Of a stretch of 42,241 nt of DNA, positions 10,727 through 37,975 are shown piece after piece. A model generated the notes under the pieces. It ran no database searches and was not told the origin of the DNA. It saw only the letters and a program-made list of their open reading frames with translations. Origin of the DNA: Oscillospiraceae bacterium. GTDB lineage: Bacteria; Bacillota; Clostridia; Oscillospirales; CAG-272. The DNA lies in assembly GCA_015065295.1 (NCBI GenBank), contig SVQN01000016.1:1-42241 (forward strand), given 5' to 3'. Position 1 is the first letter of the stretch. Each line of letters begins with the position of its first letter. The translations under genes were made by a program, and so were the position numbers.

Positions 10727-11129
10727 TAACGTAAGTTCGACAGAAAAACTATCAATTTCGGCTTCCCTTTGTCATTCCGAGGACTTATCTCTTGAAATCA
10801 CAACTGAAGTTCTTGTCCGAGGAATCTTCGCACGCCACTGTGTCAGCCGTCCAGAATGTCCGTGGTTATCGTATAATTTCGACTTCAGAGGTTTACGAAC
10901 GCCCATAACTAACAGTTTGTCCAATATAAGGAACAGCAAATTGTACGTTATAACAAAGTTGAACCTCTGTAGCTGAATAGCTAAGAATACCACGGACATT
11001 CCTTACGGCTGACACAGGAGAGTGCGAAGATTCCTCGGACAAGAACTTCAGCTAAAATCGTTCGTGATAAGTCCTCGGAATGACAAAGGGAAGCCGAAAT
11101 TGATAGTTTTTCTGTCGAACTCATGTTAA
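10727..11129. repeat. Element C1: about 400 bp palindromic element
   Basis: Outer arms AACGTAAGTTCGACAGAAAA and its near complement (TTCTGTCGAACTCATGTT) enclose a long palindromic core: GTCATTCCGAGGACTTATC, then TTCTTGTCCGAGGAATCTTC, GTGTCAGCCG, and CTTCAGAGGTT, all repeated inverted on the other side. The short frames inside have no ribosome sites. It fills the gap 10688-11160. Confidence 0.8.
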
Positions 11130-11166
11130 TCAAACATCTCCCCTTCCCCGTCTTTCCAAAAAACTG

Positions 11167-11195
11167 TTGCATTTTCCCGGAAAATGTGCTATAGT
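11167..11195 (+). promoter_or_regulatory. Promoter of the SGNH hydrolase gene
   Basis: TTGCAT (11167-11172) and TATAGT (11190-11195) are 17 bases apart. The spacer is the near-palindrome TTTTCCCGGAAAA. Confidence 0.7.
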
Positions 11196-11234
11196 AAATC
11201 CAACAAAATTCCTATGATCCAAGGAGGATTTCCC

Positions 11235-12299
11235 ATGAAAATCGGTGATATCGACAAGAATCTGGCCGTTGAATCCAAGCTGAACCTGCCCGACGCGGTC
11301 TGGTTTGACGTGAAAGAGGCTCCCATCGAGGTGCGCGGCCTGGCTGTCTGCGGAAAGGGCGACAAGTTCCGCCGGATGCCGCAGGACATCGCGGACGCGA
11401 CCAACGACGGCGTGAAGTACCTCAACACCAACACGGCGGGCGGACGCATCCGGTTCCGCACGGACTCGCCGTACATTGCGATCAAGGCGGTCATGCCCGA
11501 CAACGGCACCATGGCGCACATCACCATGGTCGGTCAGTCCGGCTTTGACCTGTACCGGAGCGACGCGGGCGACTATCACTACGCCGGTTCGTTCATCCCC
11601 GGCGGACGGAACCACGGCTACGAATCCCAGAAGCCGACCGACGGCAAAATGCACACCTACACGATCAATATGCCCCTGTACGACCCCGTGGAAGAGGTCT
11701 ACATCGGTCTGGCGGCGGATGCGAATCTGGAGGCTCCGGAGCCGTACAAGTACGAACAGCCGGTTCTCTACTACGGCTCGTCCATCACCCAGGGCGGGTG
11801 CGCGTCCCGTCCCGGCAACGCGTATCAGGCGATGATCTCCCGCAGGCTCGACGGGGATTTCATCAACCTCGGTTTCTCCGGCAGCGGCCGTGCGGAACAG
11901 GTGATCTGCGACTACATGGCGTCCCTCGATCCGCTGGTGTTCGTCTCGGACTACGACCACAATGCGCCGAGTGCGGATTATCTCGAAAAAACGCACTATA
12001 ATCTGTACGAAACCTTCCGCAAGGCGCATCCGGACACGCCGTACATCATGGTATCGAAGCCGGACTTCCATCCGGAAAATCCGGAAGACGTGCGCCGTCT
12101 TGCGATCATCCGCGAAAGCTACGAAAAGGCTGCGGCGAACGGCGACAAGCACGTTTATTTTGTCGACGGTTCGCACATTTTCGACGGCGAATTTGCCGAT
12201 TCCTGCACGGTCGACGGATGCCATCCGAACGATCTCGGCTTCTTCCGTATGGCGATGGTCATCGGCGAAGCGGTTGAAAAGGCGATTTTGGAGATTTAA
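11235..12299 (+). CDS. SGNH/GDSL-family carbohydrate esterase-type hydrolase
   Basis: 354 residues from the ATG at 11235 after AAGGAGGATTTCCC. The N-terminal half is a beta-rich domain with GFDLYR, the signature of the GxDLY (SGNH N-terminal) domain. The C-terminal half has YYGSSITQGG with nucleophile S183, GFSGSG (block II glycine) and DGCHPND with D327 and H330 of the triad. Relatives of this Lipase_GDSL_3 type often deacetylate carbohydrates; the substrate here is not known. There is no signal peptide, so it is cytoplasmic. The GH2 glycosidase lies downstream in the same direction, separated by repeat B1, so the two may act on the same glycan. Confidence 0.85.
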   Translation: MKIGDIDKNLAVESKLNLPDAVWFDVKEAPIEVRGLAVCGKGDKFRRMPQDIADATNDGVKYLNTNTAGGRIRFRTDSPYIAIKAVMPDNGTMAHITMVGQSGFDLYRSDAGDYHYAGSFIPGGRNHGYESQKPTDGKMHTYTINMPLYDPVEEVYIGLAADANLEAPEPYKYEQPVLYYGSSITQGGCASRPGNAYQAMISRRLDGDFINLGFSGSGRAEQVICDYMASLDPLVFVSDYDHNAPSADYLEKTHYNLYETFRKAHPDTPYIMVSKPDFHPENPEDVRRLAIIRESYEKAAANGDKHVYFVDGSHIFDGEFADSCTVDGCHPNDLGFFRMAMVIGEAVEKAILEI

Positions 12300-12305
12300 G
12301 GTTCC

Positions 12306-12526
12306 AACGTAAGTTCGATAGATAAACAACAGCGAAAAATATACCCGTAGGGAGCGGCGCCCTCGTCGCTCCGTTGAACGATTTGCTTATACACAATTTT
12401 GTAAATCGAACTTTAACTTCAATTTATCAAATTTTGTATTGCCTAAACCATCCGACGGAGCGACGAGGGCGCCGCTCCCTACGGGTTGGGATAAAATCGT
12501 TCAGATATCGAATACATCCGTAAATA
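12306..12526. repeat. Element B1: palindromic MITE-like element
   Basis: Left end AACGTAAGTTCGATAG; inner arms CCGTAGGGAGCGGCGCC (12345 onward) and its complement ending near 12484. The right outer arm is degraded (ATATCGAATACATCCG), so this is an older copy. It lies between the esterase and the GH2 gene. Confidence 0.75.
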
Positions 12527-12541
12527 AGGAGGTCTTTTACA

Positions 12542-14890
12542 ATGCGTGAAAAAATCTTACTTGACGAAAACTGGATGTTCCACCGCGGGGACATTGTCCG
12601 GAAACGTCCGTCCGTAAAGGGGCCGATCTATTCCGGTGCGAAGACCGTGCGTGAACGATGGGGCGCGGCTTCCCCCGCATACAACGACAATCCCGACGAT
12701 TACGGCGGAGGCGAATTCCAGTCCGACCGCTGGGACCGCGTGAATCTGCCGCACGACTACGTCATCGAAGGCGAGTTCGACAAAAACGAAAACAACGCGC
12801 TCGGCTATCTGAAATACGACAACGCGTGGTACCGGAAGCACTTCAGGCTGGACGAAAGCGACCGGAACCGCCGTCTGACGCTGTATTTCGAAGGAGTCAG
12901 CGGACAGTCCGCGATTTACCTCAACGGGATTCCGCTGTATCACAATTTCTGCGGCTACACCTCGTTTGAGGTGGACATCACGGATTCTGCCATCTTCGGC
13001 GGCGACAACGTTCTGGCGGTCTACATCGACGCGTCGCATCACGAAAGTTGGTGGTACGAGGGCGGCGGCATCTACCGTCACGTCTGGCTCGTGAAAACCG
13101 CGCCGGTCTGCGTGGATTTGTGGGGCGTGCAGATTCTCCCGAAACGGCTGCATGACACCGTCTGGGAAGTGGAAGTCCACACGACCGTGCGGAACATCTC
13201 CACCGTTCCCGCCGATGTGCGGGTCACAACCGGATTGTCCGACCGCCGCGAAACTTCCGCTGGAACTTCCGCCGGAATTTCCGCTGGATTCGGCGGTACG
13301 TCCGTGACCGTTCCGGCGAAAGGGACGGCGGAGGCTGTATATCGTACAGTTGTAGATAATCCGACTCTCTGGCAGGTCGGCTGCGGGTATCTGTATACTG
13401 CCGAAACAAAAATTTATTCCAATAATGAAGAAATTGACATCGTCCGCGACCGGTTCGGCTTCCGCGAGGTGGTGTGCGATCCGGAGCATGGTCTGTTTGT
13501 CAACGGAAAACATACGACCATCTGCGGGGTCTGCGGACATTACGACTACGGTCTGACCGGCAAGGCGGTCCCGGACAATATTTTCCGTTACAAAGTGAAA
13601 ATGCTCGCCGGAATGGGCGCGAACGGCTATCGCACAAGCCACTATCCGCAGTCCGAAGCCCTCATGGACGCGCTGGACGAAGCCGGATTCATCGTTTTGG
13701 ACGAAACGCGCTGGTTCACGTCCACCCCGGAAGGGATCGGGCAGCTTGAAATGCTCGTGAAGCGCGACCGGAACCGTCCGTCGGTGTTCTTCTGGTGCGT
13801 GGGCAACGAGGAACCGCTGTTTGCCGAAGAACGCGGGCGGCGCATTGTCGATTCCCTCTCGGCAGTGGTGCGGCGGCTTGACCCGACCCGTCCGGTGACT
13901 GCGGCGTGCGACCGTCCGGACAAGGCGACCGTCTACGGCGACCTCGACGTGATCGGGATCAACTACGGTCTCGGTTCGTACGACGCCGTTCATGCCGCGT
14001 TCCCCGACCGTCCGGTCATGTCCACGGAAAACTGTGCGACCGGCACGACGCGCGGCTGGTATTTCGACGACAGTCCGGAACAGGGGTACATCAACGCTTA
14101 CGACCGCGACACGAATTCGTGGTTCCGCGGACGGGAACTGACGTGGAAATTCCTGATGGAACGCGAATGGGTCATGGGCGGGTACCAGTGGATCGGCATC
14201 GAGCACCGCGGCGAAACGATGTGGCCGAGACTGTGTTCGCAGTCGGGCGCAATCGACCTGTTTATGCAGAAAAAAGAGGCGTTCTACCAGAATAAATCCC
14301 TGTGGACGACCGACCCGATGGTGCATCTGATCCCGCACTGGAATCACAGCGGCCGGGAAGGAGAGCTTCTGCGCGTGCGGGCGTATACGAACTGTGAGGA
14401 AGCCGAACTGTTTGTTGACGGCGTGAGCATGGGACGGGTTCCGGTGGAAACCTACGGTCACGCGGAATGGGAGGTCGAATATCAGCCCGGCATGATCGAA
14501 GCGGCGGCGTATATCGGCGGCGAGGAAGTCTGCCGTGACCGCCGCGAAACGACGGGACGTCCGGTGAAGCTGAAGCTGATCGCGGAAAACGCGGACGACG
14601 TGACGGCAAACGGGCAGGACATCGCGGTGTTCACCTGCGTCGCGCTGGATGAAGCGGGACGGGAAGTTCCGGACGCGTCGCCGGTGGTACGGTTTACGTC
14701 GAATGCGCTCGGACGGGTCGTCGGAACGGGTTCGGACGTGTGCGACCATGTGCCGGTGGCATCGCCGGAGCGGAAGATGCGCGCGGGACGGATTGCCGCT
14801 GCGGTGCGCGTCGGGAAGACGCACGGGACGCTGAAGCTGTACGCAGCTGCAGATGGACTGGACGGCACACGATGCGAAGTGGAAATTTGA
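12542..14890 (+). CDS. Glycoside hydrolase family 2 (beta-galactosidase-type)
   Basis: 782 residues starting after AAGGAGG. N-terminal sugar-binding domain (about 1-185, with VNLPHDYVIEGEF and YEGGGIYRHVWL), an immunoglobulin-like domain (about 190-305), then the TIM barrel. The acid/base is E423 in WCVGNEE and the nucleophile E496 in STENC. GANGYRTSHYPQSEALMDALDE is the typical GH2 barrel segment. A C-terminal Ig-like DUF4982/bacterial-Ig part follows (about 600-782). There is no signal peptide, so it probably acts on imported oligosaccharides. A short SAG-repeat insertion (about 240-250) in the second domain is unusual. The exact sugar cannot be told from sequence; galactoside or glucuronide are possible. 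Confidence 0.93.
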   Translation: MREKILLDENWMFHRGDIVRKRPSVKGPIYSGAKTVRERWGAASPAYNDNPDDYGGGEFQSDRWDRVNLPHDYVIEGEFDKNENNALGYLKYDNAWYRKHFRLDESDRNRRLTLYFEGVSGQSAIYLNGIPLYHNFCGYTSFEVDITDSAIFGGDNVLAVYIDASHHESWWYEGGGIYRHVWLVKTAPVCVDLWGVQILPKRLHDTVWEVEVHTTVRNISTVPADVRVTTGLSDRRETSAGTSAGISAGFGGTSVTVPAKGTAEAVYRTVVDNPTLWQVGCGYLYTAETKIYSNNEEIDIVRDRFGFREVVCDPEHGLFVNGKHTTICGVCGHYDYGLTGKAVPDNIFRYKVKMLAGMGANGYRTSHYPQSEALMDALDEAGFIVLDETRWFTSTPEGIGQLEMLVKRDRNRPSVFFWCVGNEEPLFAEERGRRIVDSLSAVVRRLDPTRPVTAACDRPDKATVYGDLDVIGINYGLGSYDAVHAAFPDRPVMSTENCATGTTRGWYFDDSPEQGYINAYDRDTNSWFRGRELTWKFLMEREWVMGGYQWIGIEHRGETMWPRLCSQSGAIDLFMQKKEAFYQNKSLWTTDPMVHLIPHWNHSGREGELLRVRAYTNCEEAELFVDGVSMGRVPVETYGHAEWEVEYQPGMIEAAAYIGGEEVCRDRRETTGRPVKLKLIAENADDVTANGQDIAVFTCVALDEAGREVPDASPVVRFTSNALGRVVGTGSDVCDHVPVASPERKMRAGRIAAAVRVGKTHGTLKLYAAADGLDGTRCEVEI

Positions 14891-14892
14891 AA

Positions 14893-15012
14893 GGACTAAG
14901 GGCTAATAACTAATGGTGAATAGCTATTGAGTTCAACCAGACTCAATGTCAGCCGACAGATGTAACGTTTGATTAGTCATTCACCATTAACCATTAGTTA
15001 TTAGTCAAAAAA
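14893..15012. repeat. Element H2: heptamer-armed palindrome
   Basis: Left arm GGACTAAGGGCTAATAACTA, right arm CATTCACCATTAACCATTAG; central TGTCAGCCGACA. It begins 2 bases after the GH2 stop codon and ends against the -35 box of the tRNA promoter. Confidence 0.75.
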
Positions 15013-15015
15013 CGC

Positions 15016-15045
15016 TTGACAATCCGGCATCCGGTATGATATAAT
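15016..15045 (+). promoter_or_regulatory. Promoter of tRNA-Gln
   Basis: TTGACA (15016-15021) and TATAAT (15040-15045) with an 18-base spacer and TG before the -10 box. The tRNA begins 11 bases later. Confidence 0.85.
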
Positions 15046-15056
15046 ATTAAGGATGT

Positions 15057-15128
15057 TGGGGTATCGTCAAGCGGTAAGACACAGCACTTTGACTGCTGCA
15101 TTCACTGGTTCGAATCCAGTTACCCCAG
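15057..15128 (+). tRNA. tRNA-Gln (anticodon TTG)
   Basis: 72 nt cloverleaf. Acceptor TGGGGTA pairs with TACCCCA; the anticodon stem CAGCA/TGCTG encloses the loop CTTTGAC with anticodon TTG; the T arm is ACTGG-TTCGAAT-CCAGT. No CCA is encoded. It is a lone tRNA gene with its own promoter and terminator. Confidence 0.97.
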
Positions 15129-15137
15129 AGACAGCAA

Positions 15138-15174
15138 AACACCGGTGAAGGAATTTCTTCCGCCGGTGTTTTTT
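15138..15174. terminator. Bidirectional terminator between tRNA-Gln and the S41 peptidase gene
   Basis: AACACCGG (15138-15145) pairs with CCGGTGTT (15163-15170), with an inner GAAGGAA/TTCTTC extension and T-runs on both strands. It can serve the tRNA and the convergent peptidase gene. Confidence 0.85.
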
Positions 15175-15176
15175 GT

Positions 15177-16457
15177 TTACTTCAATGTTTTGATATATTC
15201 CACGACTGCGCCGACCGGATCGGTGGTATCCAGCCAGTAATCCGGTGCAATGCCCTTCCCTTCTTCAAACCCGTCCATATTAAAAACTTTATAACCCATG
15301 TGGAAAGTCACACCGGAATTCGGAAGACGGTAGCTGCGGTTTTCGCCGAATTGTCCGCATCCCGCCGTTGCGCTTCCGACAAAACAGACGTTTTTTACAG
15401 ACTGCGCGAATTTCACTGCCCCTTCGCCCGACGATGCTACGCCCTTATTCTGCAATACGAACAGTTTTCCGTTGTATGTCGCCTTTGAGTGATCGATCTT
15501 CTCGCCGCCAAGGAAAGTCCGATAGGTTTTTAACGGTTCTTTCACCTCTTCATCCAAGAGCGGATTTTCCAAGACAGAACCACTTACTTCCCATACAGCA
15601 TGGTCGTTCAGTCCCCGTACAAAATGCGACGGATAGTAAGTACTTCCGCCGTAGTTATTCAGCACCGACCACACAAGAACCGCTGATTCCCGATACGTTT
15701 CCCCTGATTTTCGGAACGGCTCAAATGGATTCTCCGTATTCGGGTCGACACAGTAGTTTGTGTGGTATACGACCGGAATACCGTCCCTTTCTGTCTCCAG
15801 CATCTGTTCCTCACTGGTTTCTGCCGCATCAGTACGGCAGTGGTGTACCGGACAGGAAACACCGTCCAGCTGGATACTTTCAACCTTTTCCGGCGATAAC
15901 ATCCCTATCAGATACCGCCGTGTTCCATCCGGTGCGGGAAGAGTTTCAAACAAATATTCTTTTATATTTTCTGCTGTAAAAATATAACCGCTGCTGAAAA
16001 TACCCGTTTCGTCTTCAAGAACCGTATAGCCTTCCACTGTTTCCGCCACGGTAATCCCGGTAAAATATGCATGGTATGCTTTCTCAAACGAAGATTCATC
16101 CTTCGTCCGGAAATAAAAATGCGTATCGTTGATGTACGGTTTGAGCGGAAGATAAAAGGCATTTTTCACATCCATCGCGCTCATACGTTCGGGGAGACTG
16201 CTGAGAATCTGCTCTTTCAGTCCAGTAAAGTCCACTTTGTCCGCGTAGTATTCATATCCGGCATAGCAGAAGCGCAGAAGATCGAAAAAGCAGTCGATAT
16301 CTTCTGCCGCCTTTTCACGTGTCACTTCGGCATTTTCGTTCCACTCCCAGTGTTTCCAGTCCGTAACGAACAGCGGACGGAGACGTTCGATGGTTGCTTC
16401 ATCCATTGGCATCGGCTGTGCTTCGGCATAATAATGTTGAAGCTCTTCGTGTTTCAT
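15177..16457 (-). CDS. S41-family (tail-specific-protease-like) peptidase
   Basis: 426 residues. The C-terminal half has the S41 core: LFVLQNKGVASSGEGAVKF (Ser nucleophile near residue 341), then VCFVGSATAGCGQFGE and the family end GIAPDYWLD. The N-terminal half is a helical region (about 1-100) I do not recognise. No PDZ domain, signal peptide or membrane segment was seen, so it is likely cytoplasmic, unlike secreted CtpA. GGAGG precedes the ATG. It is third in an operon after an extended sigma factor and a membrane protein (18-base gap). Confidence 0.8.
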   Translation of the reverse strand: MKHEELQHYYAEAQPMPMDEATIERLRPLFVTDWKHWEWNENAEVTREKAAEDIDCFFDLLRFCYAGYEYYADKVDFTGLKEQILSSLPERMSAMDVKNAFYLPLKPYINDTHFYFRTKDESSFEKAYHAYFTGITVAETVEGYTVLEDETGIFSSGYIFTAENIKEYLFETLPAPDGTRRYLIGMLSPEKVESIQLDGVSCPVHHCRTDAAETSEEQMLETERDGIPVVYHTNYCVDPNTENPFEPFRKSGETYRESAVLVWSVLNNYGGSTYYPSHFVRGLNDHAVWEVSGSVLENPLLDEEVKEPLKTYRTFLGGEKIDHSKATYNGKLFVLQNKGVASSGEGAVKFAQSVKNVCFVGSATAGCGQFGENRSYRLPNSGVTFHMGYKVFNMDGFEEGKGIAPDYWLDTTDPVGAVVEYIKTLK

Positions 16458-16475
16458 TGGATTCCTCCATTTTTA

Positions 16476-17150: not shown

Positions 17151-17153
17151 ACC

Positions 17154-18830: not shown

Positions 18831-18947
18831 TGAGAATCTCCTTTCTGCCATTCGGCTGTTTTCGTATATTCAGTCGCAGAAGTCGGTCTGTGCATCGCAG
18901 TTTTACAAAAATATTTTCACAAAAAATCAAAATCTTCTCTTTCCGCG

Positions 18948-18976
18948 CTTACTGTATACAGAAAGTATGATATAAT
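18948..18976 (+). promoter_or_regulatory. Probable promoter of the Gfo/Idh/MocA oxidoreductase gene
   Basis: TATAAT at 18971-18976 with TG one base before it (extended -10). The -35 candidate CTTACT is weak. Confidence 0.5.
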
Positions 18977-19054
18977 AAAGACATTAAATCAAAATTTTCT
19001 TTTTCAATCTACTGCAATTCCGTAAATTTTGAACCCACGAAAGGACATCCCCCT

Positions 19055-20055: not shown

Positions 20056-20276
20056 TAAACGTGAGTTCGATAGAAAAACGAAAAGGACAGGTATATCCGT
20101 AGGGAGCGGCGCCCCCGTCGCTCCGTTGAACGAGTTAGACTCACAAAACGTCTGTAAACCAAATTTGGAGTTCTATTTATCAAATTATGTCTGGTTTGAA
20201 TTGTCAGACGGAGCGACGGGGGCGCCGCTCCCTACGGTTTCAGCCGTCAATACAGAAATCTATCGAACTCACGTTA
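20056..20276. repeat. Element B2: palindromic MITE-like element
   Basis: AAACGTGAGTTCGATAG at the left and CTATCGAACTCACGTTA at the right. Inner arms CCGTAGGGAGCGGCGCC and its complement. Clear target duplication is not seen beyond TAA. It starts 9 bases after the oxidoreductase stop. Confidence 0.85.
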
Positions 20277-22078: not shown

Positions 22079-22297
22079 TAACGTGAGTTCGACGGTATTC
22101 CATATTGACGGCTGAACCCGTAGGGAGCGGTGCCCTCGCCGCTCCGTCGAACGTTTGGGTTATACAAAATTTGATAAACCAAATCCTGCACTTCTATTCA
22201 CAGACAATTTGTTTATCTAAATCGTTTAACGGAGCGGCGAGGGCACCGCTCCCTACGGGTGAAGTTGTTGATGCAGATATCCATCGAACTCACGTTA
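22079..22297. repeat. Element B3: palindromic MITE-like element
   Basis: Outer arms ACGTGAGTTCGACGG and CCATCGAACTCACGT; inner arms CCCGTAGGGAGCGGTGCC and complement. TATTA flanks both ends. It is nearly identical to B6 and to the complement of B4, so these copies are recent. Confidence 0.9.
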
Positions 22298-25027: not shown

Positions 25028-25163
25028 GAGCAATATCGGCGGCGGAACCGCGTACGCATATACACATGTACACATCGTTTTCACTTCCCGTCGTTTTTTC
25101 ACACTTTCCGGAGAAGTTCACATTTTTTTATTCTTCCTGTTATTTTAGGAATGAGGAAATATG

Positions 25164-25632
25164 AAAAACAAATAGATATTCTCTCCCCTTCCACTTCACT
25201 TTGTCATTCCGAGGACTTATCTCTATAAATTATAGCTTCCGTTCTTGTCCGAGGAATCTTCGCACTCCACTGTGTCAGCCGTAGTGGATGTCTGTGGTTA
25301 TCTTAAAATTTCGACTTCAGAGGTTTACGAACGGCTATAACAAACAGTCTGCACAAATATAGGAACAGCAGATTATACGTTATAACAAAGTTGAACCTCT
25401 GAAGCTGAGTAGGAAAGCGATACACGGACATCCCTTACGGCTGACACAGTGGCGTGCGAAGATTCCTCGGACAAGAACTACAGCTTAAACTTCAAGAGAT
25501 AAGTCCTCGGAATGACAACGTGAAGTGGAAGGGGAGAGATATCCCTCGGAATGACAGTGTGAAGTGGAAGGGTAGAGATATCCCTCGGAATGACAACGTT
25601 TGGAGGAAGGGGGGAGAATATCTATTTGTTTT
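25164..25632. repeat. Element C2: C core inside a different arm pair
   Basis: The arms here are AAAAACAAATAGATATTCTC and its near complement, not the TAACGTGAG type. The core is the same as C1 (GTCATTCCGAGGACTTATC, CTTGTCCGAGGAATCTTC, GTGTCAGCCG). On the right, a unit of about 35 bases with GAAGTGGAAGG and GAGATATCCCTCGGAATGAC is tandemly repeated. Confidence 0.8.
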
Positions 25633-25653: not shown

Positions 25654-25872
25654 TAACGTGAGTTCGATGGATATCTGCATCAACAACTTCACCCGTAGGG
25701 AGCGGTGCCCTCGCCGCTCCATTGAACGATTTAGATAAACAAATTGTCTGTGAATAGAAGTGCAGGATTTGATTTATCAAATTTTGGATAACCCAAACGT
25801 TCGACGGAGCGGCGAGGGCACCGCTCCCTACGGGTTCAGCCGTCAATATGGAATACCGTCGAACTCACGTTA
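25654..25872. repeat. Element B4: palindromic MITE-like element, inverted orientation
   Basis: Nearly the reverse complement of B3 and B6. TAAAATA occurs on both sides (target-duplication-like). It is inserted at the inner edge of the right arm of the giant palindrome. Confidence 0.9.
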
Positions 25873-25995
25873 AAATAACAAGTAAAAATAAAAATGTGAA
25901 CTTCTCCGGAAAGTGTGAAAAAACGACGGGAAGTGAAAACGATGTGTACATGTGTATATGCGTACCGCGCTCTTCCTATTTCTGTCCTGCCCCCA

Positions 25996-26083: not shown

Positions 26084-27358
26084 ATGAAATCCAAATCCCC
26101 CCGCCTTATCACGCTCCGCGAAATCCTCGTCAATGCCCTGCTCATTTTCTGCGCCGTCACGGTCGTCGGCACCATCTCCAACGTCGTCATCCTCCTCGTC
26201 GGCTGGATCACGTCCCTGCCCGTCACCGCATCCCTCGACGCACAGGGCTACTCGCAGGCGGAACAGCAGACCGTCTGGCTGTTCTACGCCATCCTCGCCA
26301 TGACGGTCTGCGTGATCTGCTCGTTTGCCGTCACCATGGCCGTCGGTTCGCGCGCCGCACAGTACCGCGTCGGCTACGGTCAGCCGCGTCACATCGGCAT
26401 CCTCACGCCCCTTGCAACCGTCGGACTTGCCCTCGCCGTTCACGGTCTGCACTGCGTCATCCTCGCCGACCTGTCGATGGCGTACCTCGTGATCGCATCC
26501 CCTGTCCAGTACATCGCGCGGTTCCTCGGAAAGGGAGAAAATACCATTTTCATCGAGGATGCGTTCGATTTCGGGATGGAATACGTCTGGGCGGCGATCG
26601 GGATTTACCTCGCGTTTTTGGCCCTCTCCTGCGGCGCGGCGTATATTGCCGGGTTTTACCGCCGCATCCGCGAAGTCGAGAAAAAGGAAAAAGAAGATGC
26701 CTCCGCCGCACGGTATGAGGAGCGCAAAGCCCGTCTGGAAGCGGAAGGACGCGGCGGCGTATCGAACACCCAGCCGGAATGGAAGCCGGAGATCAAGCGG
26801 GAAACGCTGTCGAAGCGGACGGAGGAACGTCTGCGCGAGCTGAACCGGGCGAAAATTGTACATACGGTAATCTTCATTCTCGCGTGGATGGCCGTGGACG
26901 TGCTTCTGTGGTACCTGTGGTCGAAGTCGAGCGGACGGGAAATGCTGTCGCCGTCGGCGATTTTCTTCACGATCCTGCTGGTGATCCCGTTCTGGCCGAT
27001 GAAGAAGTACGAAATCTTTCTCGGAAAAACGTATTACGCGGAAGTGGCGGAAATCAAAGTTGTCGAACGGACGGAAATCTCCTCCGCGAAAACCGGAAAA
27101 CGCACCCGCGTGATGACCTACCGGATCGTCTACCTCCGACCGAAAGGCGGCGCATCGGAAAAACTGGAATTCAAGGAAAAGGAAATGCTGTCGTTTGACG
27201 TGGGCGACCATGTTCTGAAGCTGTCGGCGTTCCGCTACCCGGTGAACTGCAACTTCGACGATGTCCACGACGTCTACTGCCCGAACTGCGGACACAGCAA
27301 TGTCCTCGGACGGAAGCGGTGCGGCGGCTGCGGATATAAATTGGGAAGAGAAAAGTGA
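26084..27358 (+). CDS. Modular membrane protein with C-terminal zinc ribbon
   Basis: 424 residues from the ATG at 26084 after AAAGGAG. The N-terminal module (about 1-190, five membrane segments) is paralogous to the 224-residue protein at 16476-17150, sharing LSMAYLVIASPVQYIARFLG. A charged coiled stretch (EVEKKEKEDASAARYEERKA) follows. The second half has two more membrane segments (about 265-285 and 295-315), a beta-rich domain, and a Cys4 zinc ribbon (YCPNCGHSNVLGRKRCGGCG), matching the 194-residue protein at 7756-8340. So it is the sum of two modules that occur separately elsewhere in this window. Function unknown. Confidence 0.8.
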   Translation: MKSKSPRLITLREILVNALLIFCAVTVVGTISNVVILLVGWITSLPVTASLDAQGYSQAEQQTVWLFYAILAMTVCVICSFAVTMAVGSRAAQYRVGYGQPRHIGILTPLATVGLALAVHGLHCVILADLSMAYLVIASPVQYIARFLGKGENTIFIEDAFDFGMEYVWAAIGIYLAFLALSCGAAYIAGFYRRIREVEKKEKEDASAARYEERKARLEAEGRGGVSNTQPEWKPEIKRETLSKRTEERLRELNRAKIVHTVIFILAWMAVDVLLWYLWSKSSGREMLSPSAIFFTILLVIPFWPMKKYEIFLGKTYYAEVAEIKVVERTEISSAKTGKRTRVMTYRIVYLRPKGGASEKLEFKEKEMLSFDVGDHVLKLSAFRYPVNCNFDDVHDVYCPNCGHSNVLGRKRCGGCGYKLGREK

Positions 27359-27471
27359 ACAGTGAAGAGAGAAGAGTGAAAAGAAAAGGAAGATTTTTGC
27401 ACCCCTGCGGGGTGTAAAAATCAACAATTTCTCTTCTCTTTTCTCTTTTCCCTCTTCTCTTTTCCCCTTAT
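27356..27471. repeat. Element K1: purine-arm palindrome
   Basis: Left arm of GTGAA/GAGAA units, right arm of TTCTC/TTTTC units. The centre is a 14 bp hairpin, GATTTTTGCACCCC (27392-27405) with GGGGTGTAAAAATC (27409-27422), loop TGC. The first bases overlap the stop codon of the upstream gene. It could end that transcript. Confidence 0.8.
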
Positions 27472-28621: not shown

Positions 28622-28842
28622 TTAATGTGCGTTCGATGGTATTCCATATTGACAACTGAACCCGTAGGGAGCGGCGCCCCCGTCGCTCCATCAAACGATT
28701 TCGATAAACAAAATGTCTGTATATGGAATTTATAGTCTCGTTCTATCAAATTTTGTACATTCAAATCGTTCGATGGAGCGACGAGGGCGCCGCTCCCTAC
28801 AAGTGAAGCTGTCATTGCAGATATCCATCGAACTCACGTTAA
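28622..28842. repeat. Element B5: palindromic MITE-like element with 9 bp target duplication
   Basis: Arms TGTGCGTTCGATGG (variant) and CCATCGAACTCACG. TTAAGTTTA lies immediately outside both ends. Inner arms CCCGTAGGGAGCGGCGCC and complement. Inserted between eutH and its terminator. Confidence 0.9.
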
Positions 28843-28968: not shown

Positions 28969-29721
28969 TTGACCCGTTTTCTTCCCGTGTTTCTCCTGCT
29001 TCTGCTCCTGTTTTCCTCCTGCGGCACCGCTTCCGCTGACATACGTTCCGTCCCCATCCTCATGTATCACGATATCTCCGCCGATTCCGCCCCCGACAAC
29101 GCCTTCACCGTCCCGCTGTCCCTGTTCGACGGGCATCTGTCCGCCCTCGCCGATGCCGGGTATACCTCCGTCACCTTCGCCGACCTCATCAATTTCGTCT
29201 ATTTCGACGGCGATCTCCCCGAACGTCCGGTCGTGATTACCGCCGACGACGGCTACACGAACGTCCTCACGCTCGCCGCACCTGCCGCCGCCCGTCACGG
29301 CATGACCCTCTCCTGCGCCGTCATCGGCAGTTTATCCGGGAGCGGCAGTCATTTTTCTCTGGACGGCGATATTCCTTCAAATGTCGAAATTATCTCCCAC
29401 ACCTACGCTCTGCACGACCGCACGCTCACCTTCGCGCCGGAACTCGGCTCATACGAACAGCTTCTCACCGACGATTACCGCCGGATGTGCGGCTGTTACG
29501 CCGGACGTTTCCCGCAGATACCGACCGTCCTCGTCTATCCTCACGGCGTATATTCGACAGAATCCGAACAGATTCTGCATCATCTCGGCGTACTCGTCAC
29601 CGTCACCTGCGACGCGGGCGTTGCCGTGATCGAAAAAGGCAATCCGGAATCCCTGTACGCCCTGCCGAGGCTTTCGGTATGGAAAAACACAAACCTGAAG
29701 GAACTAATGGCTAATGGCTAA
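28969..29721 (+). CDS. Polysaccharide deacetylase-family lipoprotein (TTG start)
   Basis: 250 residues. The start is TTG at 28969, placed 8 bases after GAAAGGAG; no ATG is suitable. The lipoprotein signal ends LLLFSSC with C18. The NodB fold follows: PILMYHDIS, VVITADDGYTN (D93, D94) and a metal motif IISHTYALHDR (H144, H149). YPHGVYSTES is the later conserved motif. Members remove acetyl groups from peptidoglycan or extracellular glycans; lipid anchoring places it outside the membrane. The last residues (LKELMANG) and the stop codon lie inside repeat H4, so the C-terminus was altered by that repeat. Confidence 0.9.
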   Translation: MTRFLPVFLLLLLLFSSCGTASADIRSVPILMYHDISADSAPDNAFTVPLSLFDGHLSALADAGYTSVTFADLINFVYFDGDLPERPVVITADDGYTNVLTLAAPAAARHGMTLSCAVIGSLSGSGSHFSLDGDIPSNVEIISHTYALHDRTLTFAPELGSYEQLLTDDYRRMCGCYAGRFPQIPTVLVYPHGVYSTESEQILHHLGVLVTVTCDAGVAVIEKGNPESLYALPRLSVWKNTNLKELMANG

Positions 29722-29807
29722 TGGTGAATGACTAATCATCCCCTCTGTCAGCCGGACTACATAAAATTTAACCCAGTCATTCACCATTCACCCTTAGTTC
29801 TTAGCCT
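29702..29807. repeat. Element H4: heptamer-armed palindrome
   Basis: Left arm: three units of the type CTAATGG/CTAATGG/TGAATGA in a row. Right arm: CATTCACCATTCACCCTTAG. Centre CTGTCAGCCGGAC. Its left arm supplies the final codons and stop of the deacetylase gene. Confidence 0.75.
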
Positions 29808-29814
29808 TTCCCTC

Positions 29815-29843
29815 TTGATTTTTCCGTTCACCCATGATAAAAT
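29815..29843 (+). promoter_or_regulatory. Promoter of the GHL6-type glycosidase gene
   Basis: TTGATT (29815-29820) and TAAAAT (29838-29843) with a 17-base spacer and TG one base before the -10 box. Confidence 0.7.
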
Positions 29844-29878
29844 TTCTATATCACAAATTCAAAGAACGGAGATATCCT

Positions 29879-31849: not shown

Positions 31850-31861
31850 AAGGAGTAATGT

Positions 31862-31973
31862 GACTAAGGACTAATGGTGAATGGTTAAGGACTATGTCCA
31901 AACTTACCGTCTGTCAGCCTGACAAGCGGGAAGCCATAGTCATTCACCATTAACCATTAGTCCTTAGTCAAAA
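31862..31973. repeat. Element H5: heptamer-armed palindrome
   Basis: Left arm GACTAAGGACTAATGGTGAA, right arm CATTCACCATTAACCATTAG then TCCTTAGTC. Centre CTGTCAGCCTGAC. It fills the space from the glycosidase stop to within 11 bases of the next ATG. Confidence 0.8.
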
Positions 31974-31983
31974 ATTTATTTTT

Positions 31984-32655: not shown

Positions 32656-32674
32656 GCGAAATCTCATAAAAACA

Positions 32675-32710
32675 GGGGAACCTCCATGAGGTTCCCCAAA
32701 ATTTTTTATT
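32675..32710 (+). terminator. Terminator of the lyxose isomerase gene
   Basis: GGGGAACCTC (32675-32684) pairs with GAGGTTCCCC (32688-32697) with a CAT loop, then AAAA and a T-run. Confidence 0.93.
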
Positions 32711-32714
32711 CGTT

Positions 32715-32934
32715 TAACTTGAGTTCGACGGTATTCCATATTGACGGCTGAACCCGTAGGGAGCGGTGCCCCCGCCGCTCCGTCGAACGTTTTGGTTATA
32801 CAAAATTTGATAAACCAAATCCTGCACTTCTATTCACAGACAATTTGTTTATCTAAATCGTTCAACGGAGCGGCGAGGGCACCGCTCCCTACGGGTGAAG
32901 TTGTTGATGCAGATATCCATCGAACTCACGTCGT
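32715..32934. repeat. Element B6: palindromic MITE-like element
   Basis: Left end ACTTGAGTTCGACGG, right end CCATCGAACTCACG. CGTTTA is present directly outside both ends. Almost identical to B3. The right-hand duplication includes the stop codon of the convergent MATE gene, which stays intact. Confidence 0.9.
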
Positions 32935-34380
32935 TTATTTCTCCTTCACATCCTCAATCACGCACTTGATCCAGAAGCCCGACTTGACCATCGGAATACC
33001 GATGAACAGCTTGATGATATCCGAAAACTGCACAATCAGGTAGATCGTGATGATCGGCAGGGACGTGAACCGGCAGAGGGCCATCGACAGCATCGCCGGA
33101 ACAACCCAGGTATACACGCAGTCGAACAGGAATGTGATAACCGTTTTGCCGCCCGAGCGCACCGTGAAGTAGATGCAGTGGATCAGCGCGTGAATCGGCA
33201 GCGATCCGCCCATCACCATCAGGCATTTCGATGCCAGCGCGCGTACTTCCTCTTCGACGTTGTACATCTGAGGAATGAACGGCGCGGCAAGAATGATAAT
33301 CAGCCCGATCAGAATGTGCGAGACAAACGTAAAGAACAACAGCTTGTTGTCCACATCGACCGCACCCTTCGTGTCGCCCGCGCCGAGCTTCTGCCCGACG
33401 AGGATGGACACCGCCGTCCCCATCGCAAACATGATGACGCAGAACAGGTTCCACGCCGTGCCGGAAATGTTGGTCGCGGCAATCACGATGATCCCGCGGG
33501 AGGCGTAGTTGCTGTTGATGAACGTCTGGCCGAGCGACCAGAGGACTTCGTTCAGCATCAGCGGCGTTCCGGTGACGGCAATTTTCTTCACCAGTGCCGC
33601 CGGAATCCGTGCGCTGCGGTACGCGCCTTCGATAAACCGGAATTTTTCATGCCGCTTGTGGGTCAGGAACACCACATAAAACAGTTCGACAAAGCGCGAC
33701 ATGACCGTTGCAAGCGCGGCACCCGCCACACCCATTTCCGGGAATCCGAACTTCCCGTAAATCAGGAGGTAGTTGAACGTCAGGTTGACGAAAATGGCGA
33801 TGACCCCGCCGACCATGGGCGTGACCGTCTCGCCGGTTTCGCGGAGCGTTCCGGCATACACCTGCACGATGGCAAAGGGAACCAGCCCCCACAGCGCGAT
33901 GGCGAAGTAGCGTTTTGCCGCTTCGAGCGTCCGCGCGATGTCCTCGGCGGTGTTCGTCTCATTTTCGAGGAAGATCATGAGAAGCGGTTCGGCGAACAGG
34001 GAAAAAATGACAATGGCGAGAACCGACACGATGATCGAGAAGAGCATCTTGAAGCGGAACGTGTCGCGCATCCCCTTCCAGTCGCCGACGCCGAAGAACT
34101 GCGTCCCGAAGATCGACGCGCCGGAAAGCCCGCCGAAAATGGTGAGGTTGAAGACGAAAATGATCTGGTTGACGATGGAAACGCCGCTCATCGGGTGGGT
34201 TCCGAGTCCGCCGACCATGAGGTTGTCGAGAAGACTGACGAAATTGGTGATCCCCTGCTGGATAATAAGCGGCAGAACCAGCACAAACAGGGTACGGTAA
34301 AACGCGCGGTCGCCGATAAATTTTTGTTTAAACGTCATAATAATATAATTAAAAATGAATCTGCCGTATCGGTAAAACAA
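32935..34380 (-). CDS. MATE-family multidrug/metabolite exporter
   Basis: 481 residues, or 467 if the ATG at 34338 is used. Twelve membrane segments; YRTLFVLVLPLIIQQGITNF and VSLLDNLMVGGLGTHPMSGV are typical of the first MATE segments. It would export cationic compounds using an ion gradient. The TTG at 34380 follows GGGAGG with about 11 bases spacing; the ATG at 34338 fits the family N-terminus better but has no ribosome site. The GGGAGG lies inside the left arm of the palindrome at 34391-34912, so a repeat may now provide the translation signal. Confidence 0.93.
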   Translation of the reverse strand: MFYRYGRFIFNYIIMTFKQKFIGDRAFYRTLFVLVLPLIIQQGITNFVSLLDNLMVGGLGTHPMSGVSIVNQIIFVFNLTIFGGLSGASIFGTQFFGVGDWKGMRDTFRFKMLFSIIVSVLAIVIFSLFAEPLLMIFLENETNTAEDIARTLEAAKRYFAIALWGLVPFAIVQVYAGTLRETGETVTPMVGGVIAIFVNLTFNYLLIYGKFGFPEMGVAGAALATVMSRFVELFYVVFLTHKRHEKFRFIEGAYRSARIPAALVKKIAVTGTPLMLNEVLWSLGQTFINSNYASRGIIVIAATNISGTAWNLFCVIMFAMGTAVSILVGQKLGAGDTKGAVDVDNKLLFFTFVSHILIGLIIILAAPFIPQMYNVEEEVRALASKCLMVMGGSLPIHALIHCIYFTVRSGGKTVITFLFDCVYTWVVPAMLSMALCRFTSLPIITIYLIVQFSDIIKLFIGIPMVKSGFWIKCVIEDVKEK

Positions 34381-34390
34381 ACGACATTTT

Positions 34391-34912
34391 CCTCCCTCTT
34401 CGAGGCAATGCAGTCAACTTAAGAAAAAATGAGTAAATCCGAAAAACAGACAGATTTCTATGCCTTTCGGCTTCACATTGTCATTCCGAGAGATATCTCT
34501 ACCTTTCAGCCCAACATTGTCATTCCGAGGACTTATCTCTTGAAACTATAGCTTCAGTTCTTGTCCGAGGAATCTTTGCACTCCCCTATTCAGCCGTAAG
34601 AGTTGTCTGTGGTATTCTCTTCTACTCAGCTACAGAGGTTTAACTTTGTCATAATGTATGATTAGAAGTTTCTTTATTTGTGCAGATTGTTCGTTATAGG
34701 TGTTCGTCAACCTCTGAAGCCGAAAATTCAAGATAACCACGGACTTTCCGGACGGCTGAATAGGGGAGTGCAAAGATTCCTCGGACAAGAACTGAAGCTA
34801 TAGTTTCAAGAGATAAGTCCTCGGAATGACAATGTTGGGCTGAAATTTATAAACTTTCTATCAAACTTGTGTTTTTCTCGTTAAGTTGACATCATTCCCT
34901 CAAAGAGGGAGG
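34391..34912. repeat. Element C3: C core nested in a third arm pair
   Basis: The outer arms are CCTCCCTCTTCGAGGCAATG followed by GTCAACTTAAG (34391-34423) and the inverted TTAAGTTGAC then CAAAGAGGGAGG (34881-34912). Between them sits a C core with GTCATTCCGAGGACTTATC, TTGTCCGAGGAATCTTTGC and their inverted copies. The only structure in the gap 34381-34958. Confidence 0.8.
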
Positions 34913-34958
34913 CAAATATTATTCGCTTTACGGAAGCTGCGAACTCCCTTGAATTTTT

Positions 34959-36374
34959 TTATACCTTAAACCGGAAGAAATTCTTCGTATTATTATAGCA
35001 GATATCGCAGACGAGCGTCGCCAGTGCTTCGGGATCGAACGGGTACAGACCGTCTTCCACCCATTCGCCGATCAGGGCGCACAGAATCCGGCGGAAGTAT
35101 TCGTGGCGCGGGTACGACGTGAAGCTGCGGGAGTCGGTCAGCATACCGTTGAACTTGCCGAACGCCGACAGGTTGGCGAGCTGCTTCATCTGCGCCTTCA
35201 TGCCGTCCATCGTGTCGTTGAACCACCATGCGGAGCCCTGCATCACCTTCGGATAGCCGTCTTCCGAGGTCTGGAAGCAGCCGAGTGCCGCGCCGATAGA
35301 TGCGTTCGCGGACGGGTCGATCGAATACAGGATCGTTCTGGGAAGCGCATCACGGTTTTCCATCGCGTTCATGAGCTGGAGAATACCTTCGACATTCGTA
35401 TATCCGATGGTATCGAATCCGCTGTCGGGGCCGAGCTGCTTCATCATGCGGTCGTTGGCATTGCGGTAAACGCCGGCGTGAATCTGCATGACCCAGCCGT
35501 GCTTCGCGTATTCGCCCGCGAGCCAGAGGAGCATTTCGCACTTGAACGCGCACAGCATTTCGGCGGTAACGTCCCTGCCGTCGGAGGCAATTGCACATTC
35601 GAGAGCCTTGTTCGCCGCGTATTCGTTCGGCTTGACGTACATCGGGAATTCGTCGAGACCGTGGTCGGCGGTACGGCAGCCCATGTCCGCGAAGAATTCA
35701 ATCCGCTTGCCGAGAGCTTCCTTGAGGCTGGCAACGTCGGTGATGTCCACGCCGGATGCCGCGCCGAGCTTCTTGTAGTAATCCGCGAGACCGGGCTTGT
35801 TGATGTTGAAGCACTTGTCGGGACGGAATGCGGGAAGAACCTGCACGTCAAACGACTTATCTTCCGCGAGAATCTTGTGATATTCGAGGGTGTCGGCGGG
35901 GTCGTCGGTCGTGCAGACGATTTCCACGTTCGACTGGCGGATGAGGTTGCGGACGCTCATGGACGGATCGGCGAGCTTTTCGGACGTGATCTTCCAGACT
36001 TCGTCGGCGGTCTGTTCGGAGAGGATGAGATCGCAGTCGAAGTAACGCTGGAGTTCGAGGTGCGTCCAGTGGTACAGCGGATTGCCGATGAGGGACGGCA
36101 TCACAGTCGCGTACGCCTTGAACTTTTCGTAATCGGACGCGTCGCCGGTGATGAACTTTTCCGCAACGCCGCAGCTTCTCATAGCGCGCCATTTGTAGTG
36201 GTCGCCGGAAAGCCAGAGTTCGGTAATGTTGGAATACTGCTTGTCCTCGGCGATGTCGCGCGGGGGAACATGGCAGTGATAGTCAATGATCGGAAGTTCT
36301 GCCGCGTAGGTGTGGTACAGAATTTTCGCAGTCTCGGTGGACAGCAGGAAATTTTTTCCCATGAAGGTTTTCAT
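34959..36374 (-). CDS. uxaC: Uronate isomerase (glucuronate/galacturonate isomerase)
   Basis: 471 residues, normal for UxaC. It converts D-glucuronate to D-fructuronate and D-galacturonate to D-tagaturonate. Motifs: PIIDYHCHVPPRDIAED (metal histidines), VCTTDDPADTL, LPAFRPDK, MQIHAGVYRN, and LTDSRSFTSYPRHEYFRRIL near the end. AAAGGAG precedes the ATG. It lies downstream of a TIM-barrel sugar isomerase on the same strand with element D between them. No uxaA, uxuA or kdgK is in the window. Confidence 0.97.
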   Translation of the reverse strand: MKTFMGKNFLLSTETAKILYHTYAAELPIIDYHCHVPPRDIAEDKQYSNITELWLSGDHYKWRAMRSCGVAEKFITGDASDYEKFKAYATVMPSLIGNPLYHWTHLELQRYFDCDLILSEQTADEVWKITSEKLADPSMSVRNLIRQSNVEIVCTTDDPADTLEYHKILAEDKSFDVQVLPAFRPDKCFNINKPGLADYYKKLGAASGVDITDVASLKEALGKRIEFFADMGCRTADHGLDEFPMYVKPNEYAANKALECAIASDGRDVTAEMLCAFKCEMLLWLAGEYAKHGWVMQIHAGVYRNANDRMMKQLGPDSGFDTIGYTNVEGILQLMNAMENRDALPRTILYSIDPSANASIGAALGCFQTSEDGYPKVMQGSAWWFNDTMDGMKAQMKQLANLSAFGKFNGMLTDSRSFTSYPRHEYFRRILCALIGEWVEDGLYPFDPEALATLVCDICYNNTKNFFRFKV

Positions 36375-36422
36375 TGTGTGATCTCCTTTATATGTTATTT
36401 TCAGAAGCCGTTGAGTATCTTT

Positions 36423-36578
36423 AAAGGTGACACCTCATCAGTCGCTACGCGCCAGCTTCCCCTCAAGGGGAAGCCAAAAATAGAGAAAACTTCTATCGGC
36501 TGACGGATGAATTTGCACTTTCCAAGCCTTCCCCTCGAGGGGAAGGTGGCACGAAGTGCCGGATGAGGTGTCACCCTT
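36423..36578. repeat. Element D: palindromic repeat
   Basis: AAAGGTGACACCTCATC at the left and GATGAGGTGTCACCCTT at the right; inner arms CTTCCCCTCAAGGGGAAG and CTTCCCCTCGAGGGGAAG are each palindromic themselves. Sequences of this kind are familiar to me from gut Firmicutes genomes. Confidence 0.8.
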
Positions 36579-36597
36579 AGAAATACGAAACGGGTCC

Positions 36598-37470
36598 TCA
36601 GAGGATTTGCTTCAGATAATTCAGCGTGTTCTCCAGCTTGGCGATGTCGTATTCCCCGCCGTCGAGCATCACGGGGGATTCAAGCGTGACCGTTCCGGCA
36701 TATCCCATGCCGTCGAGAAGTCCCGCAACGTCCGCAAAGTCGATCGTTCCCTCGCCGGGATGCAGAATCGGACGGAGCGCGGCAAAATCCCGGTAGGTTC
36801 CGCCGAAATCACTGATGTGGACGTGTTCGATGCACGGCGCAGTCAGCGGATCGGTGAGCGTTTCGCGGGTCTGTTCGTGGAGCTTGCCGAAGCGGGTATC
36901 GAAAATCAGCGCGGTATTCGCCGGAAGCGGGAATAAACTCCGCCAGTTCGACAGAGGATCGCCGTGGCTGGACGGAATATTCTCGATCAGCAGGCGCACG
37001 CCGGACTCCGCCGCCGTTTCGGACAGCAGCGCGAGCTTGGAGGCATTGTAATCCACATGACCGTCGGACGCACGTCCGCCCCAGAGGTGGAGAACCATCC
37101 GGTGCAGTCCGGTCAGCTCCGCCATGCGGCAGTTTTCGCGGTACAGGGCGAAGGCGTTCTGCCAGAGAGCGTCGGCTTCGTCGGACTTTCCGTCGGCGTT
37201 CAGCACGCCTGCGTCGGAAATCATCGTGCCGACCTCCTTTTCGCAGTGGATCACGGAATCGGGAGAAACCAGTCCGGAAGCGTTCACGGCATCCGCGACG
37301 GTTTCGAGTTTGTCATAATAGAACTGGAGCATCATCAGCTCCACGCCGTCACAGAACCCGGCTTCGCGGAGACGGACGAACTCCCGCAGAGCGCGGCGGT
37401 AGTCGTAGCCGTTGCGGTAGCCGACCATGGTGCCGGTGGACGGAAAAAGAGCGCGGTTATGGCTTGTCAT
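36598..37470 (-). CDS. Xylose isomerase-like TIM-barrel sugar isomerase/epimerase
   Basis: 290 residues of the AP-endonuclease-2/IolE fold. Visible: FCDGVELMMLQFYYDKLE, HRMVLHLWGG, VRLLIENIPSSHGDP (metal Glu), ALIFDTRFGKLHEQ, HVHISDFGGTYRDF and LHPGEGTIDFADV (metal His and Glu). These proteins isomerise or epimerise sugars or keto-sugar acids. AGGA precedes the ATG. It is upstream of uxaC on the same strand and may share its transcript, so a uronate-related role is plausible. Confidence 0.85.
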   Translation of the reverse strand: MTSHNRALFPSTGTMVGYRNGYDYRRALREFVRLREAGFCDGVELMMLQFYYDKLETVADAVNASGLVSPDSVIHCEKEVGTMISDAGVLNADGKSDEADALWQNAFALYRENCRMAELTGLHRMVLHLWGGRASDGHVDYNASKLALLSETAAESGVRLLIENIPSSHGDPLSNWRSLFPLPANTALIFDTRFGKLHEQTRETLTDPLTAPCIEHVHISDFGGTYRDFAALRPILHPGEGTIDFADVAGLLDGMGYAGTVTLESPVMLDGGEYDIAKLENTLNYLKQIL

Positions 37471-37510
37471 ATTCGGAATTCCTGTGGAATTTTCATAAAA
37501 TTACAGGATA

Positions 37511-37539
37511 ATGATACTATATCGAAACGGATTTGTCAA
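37511..37539 (-). promoter_or_regulatory. Promoter of the sugar isomerase (and possibly uxaC)
   Basis: On the minus strand TTGACA (37534-37539) and TATCAT (37511-37516) are 17 bases apart. Its -35 region and spacer start (TTGACAAATCC) match the mannosidase promoter. Confidence 0.75.
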
Positions 37540-37576
37540 GAGATAGACAAGAACTAAGAGTAAAGAACTGATAACC

Positions 37577-37975
37577 AACGGAAGTTCGATAGAATTCCAT
37601 CCCTTTCCGCTTCACGTTGTCATTCCGAGGACTTATCACGAACAATTATAGCTGAAGTTCTTGTCCGAGGAATCTTCGCACTCCCCTGTGTCAACCGTAG
37701 CGGATGTCCGTGTATCACTCTCCTACTCAGCTTCAGAGGTTCAACTTTGTTATAACGTACAATTTGCTGTTTTTTTATTTGTGCAGACCGTTCATTATAG
37801 GCGTTCGTTAACCTCTGAAGTCGAAATTTCAACACGACCACGGACATTTCCTACGGCTGATACAGGAGAGTGCAAAGATTCCTCGGACAAGAACTTCAGT
37901 TATAATTGTTCGTGATAAGTCCTCGGAATGACAACGTGAAGCTGTATCATAAAGAAATCCCCCGAACTCACGTTA
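37577..37975. repeat. Element C4: about 400 bp palindromic element
   Basis: Outer arms AACGGAAGTTCGATAG and (partly degraded) CCGAACTCACGTTA, of the B/C1 type. The core repeats GTCATTCCGAGGACTTATC, TTGTCCGAGGAATCTTCGC and their inverted copies. It is the only structure in 37540-38000. Confidence 0.8.

Follow-up and report, generated by a model that had tools for sequence, protein, structure and literature searches.

The window analysed here is a contig of 42,241 nucleotides (C89) from a draft genome of an Oscillospiraceae bacterium (G000; 2.9 Mb, 135 contigs, 70.8% complete), and it carries a set of palindromic elements in which outer arms and cores occur in different combinations. We found that one type of outer arm, termed T1 (TAACGTGAG), encloses at least four different cores and that one core, termed C, occurs within several types of outer arms. 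The T1 arms are the ends of miniature inverted-repeat transposable elements (MITEs), because exact target duplications of 4–6 bp flank 23 of 41 T1 elements, with every core. Furthermore, the pairing of C with T1 and its pairing with a second arm type, T2 (CTATAAATGAGCAAATCCG), each arose more than once. An earlier note on this DNA had described a modular set in which a palindrome is placed into the middle of another palindrome, had suggested insertion into hairpin loops as the explanation and had taken the family to be undescribed. We retain the modular set and uphold neither the loop insertion nor the claim of novelty.

Pairing of arms and cores

The pairings were tabulated across the whole but incomplete G000, with arm classes set by eye. 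Allowing up to two mismatches, TAACGTGAGTTCGA has 104 sites in G000 compared to 10 for the reversed control. The arms are thus shared beyond chance, and the same is seen when elements are folded as single-stranded DNA: the T1-C element C1 of the window reaches a z score of −30.5 (0 of 100 shuffles equally good) and the T1-B element at 25654 one of −12.75 (0 of 200). The contigs C14, C67, C42, C22 and C127 of G000 start or stop within T1-B copies; repeats thus break the assembly, and the copy numbers are lower bounds.

The set of paired T1 elements (n=41) comprises 37 elements from G000, three from the related genome G012 and one from G022. Pairing allowed ends with at most two mismatches, so that copies of C as well as some copies of B and D are absent from this set. 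The cores are B in 18 elements, D in 11, E in six and C in three, and the remaining three are small deletion forms. Cores B and D are tagged pairs of repetitive extragenic palindromic (REP) sequences, in which GTAG and a hairpin occur twice in inverted order, as in REP doublets forming hairpins (REPINs), whereas E consists of hairpins.

We detected 24 distinct copies of the C core in G000, in at least four types of outer arms plus singletons. Six are enclosed by T1 arms (L031, L033, L035, L037, L045 and L053), with degenerate ends in L037, in L053 and on the right side of L035. Ten are enclosed by T2 arms (L034, L039, L040, L042, L043, L044, L047, L048, L050 and L051), and two of these, L034 and L051, are additionally enclosed by S arms (GTTAATTTAAGG). 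One copy each is found in S arms with a one-sided T2 remnant (L046), in P arms (GACTAATGGTGA; L038, a weak assignment), in arms of the type seen at 25164 of the window (L032) and in mixed arms with T1 on one side (L041). The last four copies have short inverted arms that are singletons: 14 bp in L036, with a T2-like stretch beyond one side, a perfect 15 bp in L049, 7 bp past the shared inner arm in L052, and those of L084. T2 arms have 13 sites compared to 3 in the control; 12 of them were inspected and belong to C copies, and the thirteenth is C32:2184. An exact 21-mer of the C core was found in 0 stretches of the named-genome collection, from which records close to the window's genome were possibly excluded.

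When the edges of arms and cores are aligned, an outer arm that varies is followed by an inner arm that is shared (GAyrGA-ATTCyAT...GCTTCAC) and then by either core. Shared outer arms around unrelated cores had been proposed for B and for the C elements C1 and C4, and this is borne out. Their common part is longer than 14 bp, as it includes an inner arm of ~26 bp, which links the outer arm to either core and terminates in ...GCTTCAC in many copies.

Exact T1 sites occur in three of 59 genomes, G000 included. At two mismatches, 21 of the 24 genus genomes have some site, mostly at control level; above the control are G012 (24 vs 4), G022 (12 vs 1) and G016 (9 vs 0). The places read in G012 show T1 with E hairpins plus one REP-like remnant, G015 has a 68-bp T1 element with one E hairpin, and G022 has a small B-like form. 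Therefore, T1 arms hold varied cores in other species too. In G007, one T1 end adjoins 16–23 nt that are also present in the C core.

Transposon ends and repeated origins of pairings

T1 has the hallmarks of a MITE, that is, terminal inverted repeats in multiple copies together with target-site duplications. The exact direct repeats flank 8 of 18 elements with B, one of three with C, seven of 11 with D, five of six with E and two of the three deletion forms. Their length is 5 bp in 12 elements (0.4 expected from mispaired flanks), 4 bp in nine (1.0) and 6 bp in three (0.0), with one element counted under two lengths. The T1 reading frame (AACGTGAG...CTCACGTT) was picked after the flanks had been inspected, and the null of mispaired flanks uses the identical frame. 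T2 likewise combines terminal inverted repeats (ten copies) with a target duplication. Using a fixed frame from an earlier flank reading, and omitting the S-nested copies L034 and L051, we observed that the 7-bp flanks match at 6–7 of seven positions in four of eight copies (seven in L040, L047 and L050, six in L044) compared to 0 of 56 cross pairs. As T2 arms with 7-bp duplications enclose C, one core is therefore carried by two systems.

No autonomous relative of T1 was recognised among the G000 sites listed; five wider T1 pairs (1.1–2.2 kb), which were not searched for genes, were taken as two adjacent elements or as weak sites with three mismatches. The listed sites of the 24 genus genomes include no long pair that could be an autonomous T1 element.

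The repeated origin of the pairings is seen when the 24 C cores are placed in a tree (318 columns). On it, the six T1 rows require six changes of label, a number that none of 500 shuffles exceeds, i.e. the T1 copies are not clustered. A single clade of T1-C copies is rejected by the approximately unbiased (AU) test (p-AU 1.3e-4; 2.5e-5 against the T2 rows alone), and so is a single clade of T2-C copies (p-AU 9e-6; the T2 label comprises 11 rows, L046 included). When the alignment is divided into thirds of ~100 columns, the T1 clade is rejected in all of them (left 4e-6, middle 0.005, right 0.008) and the T2 clade in the left (7e-4) and right (9e-4) thirds. Lineage I, a label given after the first C-core tree had been inspected, forms a clade in the left third (100/100), but the right third rejects it (0.011) and the middle one does so marginally (0.047). 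The C cores are therefore mosaics. Both C-core lineages occur with both arm types.

Two copies are hybrid-armed, namely L041 and a REPIN-B place with T1 on one side only (L178). In two of the ten T2 copies, L042 and L051, the loop is reversed with respect to the arms; L040 was called inverted by a script that failed on its beta arm, and its alpha arm groups it with the other eight. By eye, an extra small core hairpin is common to L042 (T2) and L053 (T1), and their cores have lengths of 334 and 336 compared to 313–319 in the others. In the 13 symmetrical C cores, an arm resembles its partner in the same copy over 60 nt more than it resembles arms of other copies (0.931 vs 0.877; 0 of 2000 permutations), and the own partner arm is the best match in 7 of 13. 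Over 137 nt, the values are 0.791 and 0.767 (0 of 2000 permutations), with the own partner best in 4 of 13.

Elements of the window and REP pairs in RAYT genes

All six B copies that had been described in the window are present, and so are the C cores at 10727, 25164, 34391 and 37577 with their named arms. The element C1 (10727..11128) consists of T1 terminal inverted repeats (10727–10740 and 11115–11128), inner arms and a C core. The other T1-C element, C4, spans 37577..37975, and its left arm reads CAACGGAAG. The T1-B elements are located at 12305..12526 (right end decayed; REPIN-B core at ~12343–12486), 20057..20276, 22079..22297, 25654..25872 (5-bp duplication AAAAT), 28623..28841 (6-bp target duplication AAGTTT) and 32715..32933 (right end imperfect; 4-bp duplication).

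The C2 element (L032; 25164..25633) has its C core within 18-bp AAAAACAAATAGATATTC arms. This arm type is present as proposed and can be refined, as it lies within a longer palindrome whose outer arms, termed V, are a repeat and whose right arm contains the T1-B element at 25654. The left V arm is located at 25052..25148 on the forward strand and the right one at 25871..25965 on the reverse strand, with 95% identity to the left. As V arms are also found singly (C109:718–801 and C20:2559–2614), a unique inverted duplication was ruled out. At the right end of the C2 core, a unit of ~39 nt, composed of core edge and inner arm, occurs in tandem (25518–25595), and the 34391 core has a similar repeat on its left. 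The nested element at 34391 (L046; 34369..34934) shows three layers by eye: S outer arms (CCTCCCTC; 34369–34429 and 34874–34934), a one-sided T2 remnant on the left and the C core (~34518–34831).

The window also contains several P palindromes without a C core, such as the one at 31861..31970, whose arms resemble those around C at G000:C40 (L038). Simple coreless GACTAATGGTGAATAG palindromes are located at 14894–15006, 29704–29804, 31861–31970, 41472–41652 and 42079–42201, and a further palindrome family (GAAGAGTGAAAAG...GGGTGTAAAAATC) at 27338–27460 and 39687–39809. Lastly, the segment 29812–32643 is inverted compared to G012 and G022, and compared to G015 in the matched part. Of the T1-B copies, the one at 32715 lies 72 bp past the right end of the segment and the one at 28623 precedes the left end by ~1 kb, and B copies may have mediated this inversion.

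Cores B and D also have dispersed copies of their own. Six places carry a free-standing REPIN-D of 78 bp with no inverted repeats beside it (L159, L161, L162, L163, L165 and L166, with a T1-like left flank at L161); the place L167 was left out of this count. REPIN-B occurs outside T1 arms at three places (L173, L174 and L175). Among the other B places, T1 is degenerate at L176, a contig end truncates L177, and L179 and L184 are T1-like.

In the incomplete G000, there is a single match to Y1_Tnp, the domain of REP-associated tyrosine transposases (RAYTs). Its open reading frame of 202 amino acids (L109:1357-1965, on G000:C113) contains a third REP pair, type G, and no RAYT cognate to B or D was found in this genome. 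The nearest named relatives of the protein belong to Ruminococcaceae/Ruminococcus bins (51–54% identity), so that the host is probably clostridial. A D-type REP is located in the RAYT gene of another genome (L273). From 119 relatives found, we kept 80 RAYT loci (L247–L326). An inverted GTAG REP pair lies within the matched RAYT stretch of 48 of these 80 loci (43 are stop-free there), and 13 more have one REP half, compared to 1 of 77 control stretches taken upstream. From one RAYT gene to another the REP varies, whereas the two REPs of one gene mostly match. Clostridial RAYT genes thus often contain an inverted GTAG REP pair in their coding sequence. No passage on such in-gene pairs was found in the accessible parts of the literature, which include two RAYT papers.

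How the combinations may arise

We consider it probable that the elements combine MITE ends with passenger hairpins, which are reassorted by recombination or template switching and then amplified by arm-specific transposases. The elements would be non-autonomous mobile palindromes with three layers, namely outer arm, inner arm and core. T1 and T2 arms would be terminal inverted repeats recognised by two different putative transposases, which would move the whole element regardless of its content and duplicate ~5 bp (T1) or 7 bp (T2). The cores would be passengers: the REP pairs B and D, which may be movable by RAYT-type transposases, the hairpin E, single or paired, and the long palindrome C. 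New pairings would arise mainly via exchange between elements through the shared inner arm and core, aided by hairpin folding. A one-sided exchange would yield a hybrid, template switching between the arms could restore its symmetry, and nested insertion would add further layers. Combinations with intact ends would then be amplified by the arm-specific transposase. In yeast, template switching homogenises inverted-repeat arms and inverts the spacer, according to the accessible text of PMC8604942.

Regarding the exchange itself, we tentatively suggest that folded palindromes recombine or switch template in the shared stem, so that one or two steps could suffice to exchange the entire core or both outer arms. 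Such an exchange at the tip fits the mosaic cores, the loop inversions, the hybrids and the several origins of pairings. If it is true, unrelated transposition systems would draw on one pool of hairpin cargo.

Several results weigh against reassortment of MITE ends and passengers. Neither a T1 nor a T2 transposase was found, and the T2 flanks of the other four copies match at 5 (L043), 4 (L042), 2 (L048) and 0 (L039) of seven positions. On the C-core tree, the T2 label requires six changes, whereas shuffled labels require 8.3 on average and reach such a low value in 31 of 500 cases; T2 is thus somewhat clustered, and the middle third does not reject a T2 clade (0.079). The trees rest on ~318 columns (~100 per third), and recombination weakens any single tree. 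The likeness between arms of one copy is weak over all 24 C cores (0.812 vs 0.790; 38 of 2000) and is absent from the inner arms of T1 elements, where random pairings gave as high a value in 1767 of 2000 cases for T1-B (18 copies), in 1990 of 2000 for T1-D (11 copies) and in 394 of 2000 for T1-C (3 copies), so that a general homogenisation of arms is unsupported. Finally, the B cores are flanked by arms of 39–40 nt, left and right alike, in all 18 copies, and this centring would be directly explained by loop insertion.

In loop insertion, as the earlier note had proposed, cores would enter the tip of a pre-existing palindrome (REPINs by RAYT, C by another enzyme) and would then be carried along. 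Besides the exactly central position of the T1-B cores, this is consistent with inner arms that terminate in GCTTCAC or similar directly before either core. It is also consistent with the Y1_Tnp gene in G000, as enzymes of this type act on single strands. Three insertions with a target duplication inside another element were found, T1-D within a C arm (L038), B at 25654 within a V arm and T1-D within a C loop (L084), and the last of these fits the proposal. Moreover, REP dimers within longer palindromes are reported elsewhere, in the accessible part of PMC3733652. We nevertheless regard loop insertion as unlikely. A bare palindrome as a target, i.e. a clean empty T1 arm pair, was not found among the pairs examined, which were part of the 104 G000 sites and 18 stretches from relatives. 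The shortest T1 pairs, of 30 to 91 bp, either derive from deletions or enclose just one hairpin, with the 44-bp L094 in G000 as a possible exception; the 30-bp pair in G012 resembles a deletion. Two candidates for empty pairs were rejected by eye, as L075 (81 bp) retains D sequence and L068 (90 bp) retains B sequence. Furthermore, the matching palindromes are missing at the corresponding sites of relatives. At the 34391 site, G012, G015 and G008 have 30, 28 and 25 nt instead of ~620, with no palindrome by eye, and G022 has another hairpin. By eye, no arm-like palindrome is present at the 37577 site in G022 or at the G000:C135 site in G012 and G022. The 25164 site is uninformative, as G022 and G012 have other sequence there. 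The left flank of L036 was not found in six genomes. The six free REPIN-D copies outside palindromes, the C cores as mosaics rather than intact blocks and the less even arms of T1-D (34–46 nt in 9 of 10 copies, 160/45 in one) also argue against insertion into loops. At its 37577 site, G012 carries a gene between inverted V-like repeats ATACACATGATACACTT... (L124, G012:C103); by eye only, this gene resembles the uroporphyrinogen decarboxylase type.

It is somewhat more doubtful still that ordinary nested insertions formed each pairing once, followed by clonal copying by the transposase of the arm. T1-B and T1-D do look like amplified composites with duplications, and L038, L084 and the element at 25654 are examples of nesting. 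However, a single origin is rejected for T1-C as well as for T2-C, and the presence of both arm types in both C-core lineages does not fit a single formation of each pairing. A chance resemblance, or an assembly artefact of this draft, metagenome-type genome, seems very improbable to us. Its 135 contigs, several of which break within T1-B copies, would allow for an artefact; yet the site counts far above control, the target duplications, the occurrence of T1 around E or B-like cores in the separate assemblies G012, G015 and G022, and the four C and six B copies within one contig all speak against it.

When comparing the elements to known systems, we find that T1 and T2 resemble bacterial MITEs (RUP, Correia/NEMIS, Nezha and QMITE), which are short and present in many copies, with terminal inverted repeats and target duplications. 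They differ from these in that an arm type can enclose several unrelated palindromic cores and a core can be enclosed by more than one arm type, and in that the source transposase was not found. IS1397 is an insertion sequence aimed at REP palindromes. Such insertion sequences (IS1397 and IS1111) are mobile DNA aimed at palindromes, a trait that the cores here may share; in contrast, the host palindrome is here itself mobile, and aimed insertion is a candidate only. As in REPINs, or GTAG REP dimers with RAYT, the units B, D and G are inverted pairs of GTAG plus hairpin, and RAYT-type genes carry such units (type G in the Y1_Tnp gene of G000, type D in a relative elsewhere). Unlike REPINs, most B and D copies ride in a MITE-like element that has a target duplication of its own, and their cognate RAYT is missing from what is assembled of G000.

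The claim that no such family has been described was too strong, as REP dimers in longer palindromes and the BOX elements of Streptococcus suis have been published. In the accessible text of a 2013 study (PMC3733652), GTAG-15 of A. variabilis and CGTC-1 of H. neapolitanus are REP dimers embedded in a larger palindrome, and unlinked targets of this kind are reported as absent from both species. Those cases have one REP family per palindrome, whereas several REP types as well as non-REP cores share one arm type here, with target duplications. For QMITE2 of Coxiella, the accessible text of PMC10969869 describes a GTAG REP within it and the finding of IS1111 in it. The BOX elements of S. suis enclose the same boxB modules between two kinds of ends, boxA/C and boxE/F (PMC3049150, in the part available), and here, too, different ends enclose the same inner modules, with C found in T1, T2, S, P (weakly assigned), 25164-type and singleton arms. 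Symmetrical arms, a core at the symmetry centre and a tree test of reshuffling are not part of the available BOX account. The exact combination of arms and cores was not found in the accessible parts of PMC3733652, PMC10969869, PMC3049150, PMC6006769 and PMC2817692, which leaves its absence from the literature unproven. Thus, comparable modular repeats are already known, and the present set appears unusually rich, with an unusually clear repeated reassortment.

Taken as we propose, these palindromes would be small non-coding mobile elements assembled from parts, i.e. from ends that are read by a transposase and from hairpin cores that possibly have their own mover. This could account for the variety of bacterial palindromic repeat families and for the difficulty of classifying them, and it provides a testable case for hairpin exchange as an origin of new repeat families.

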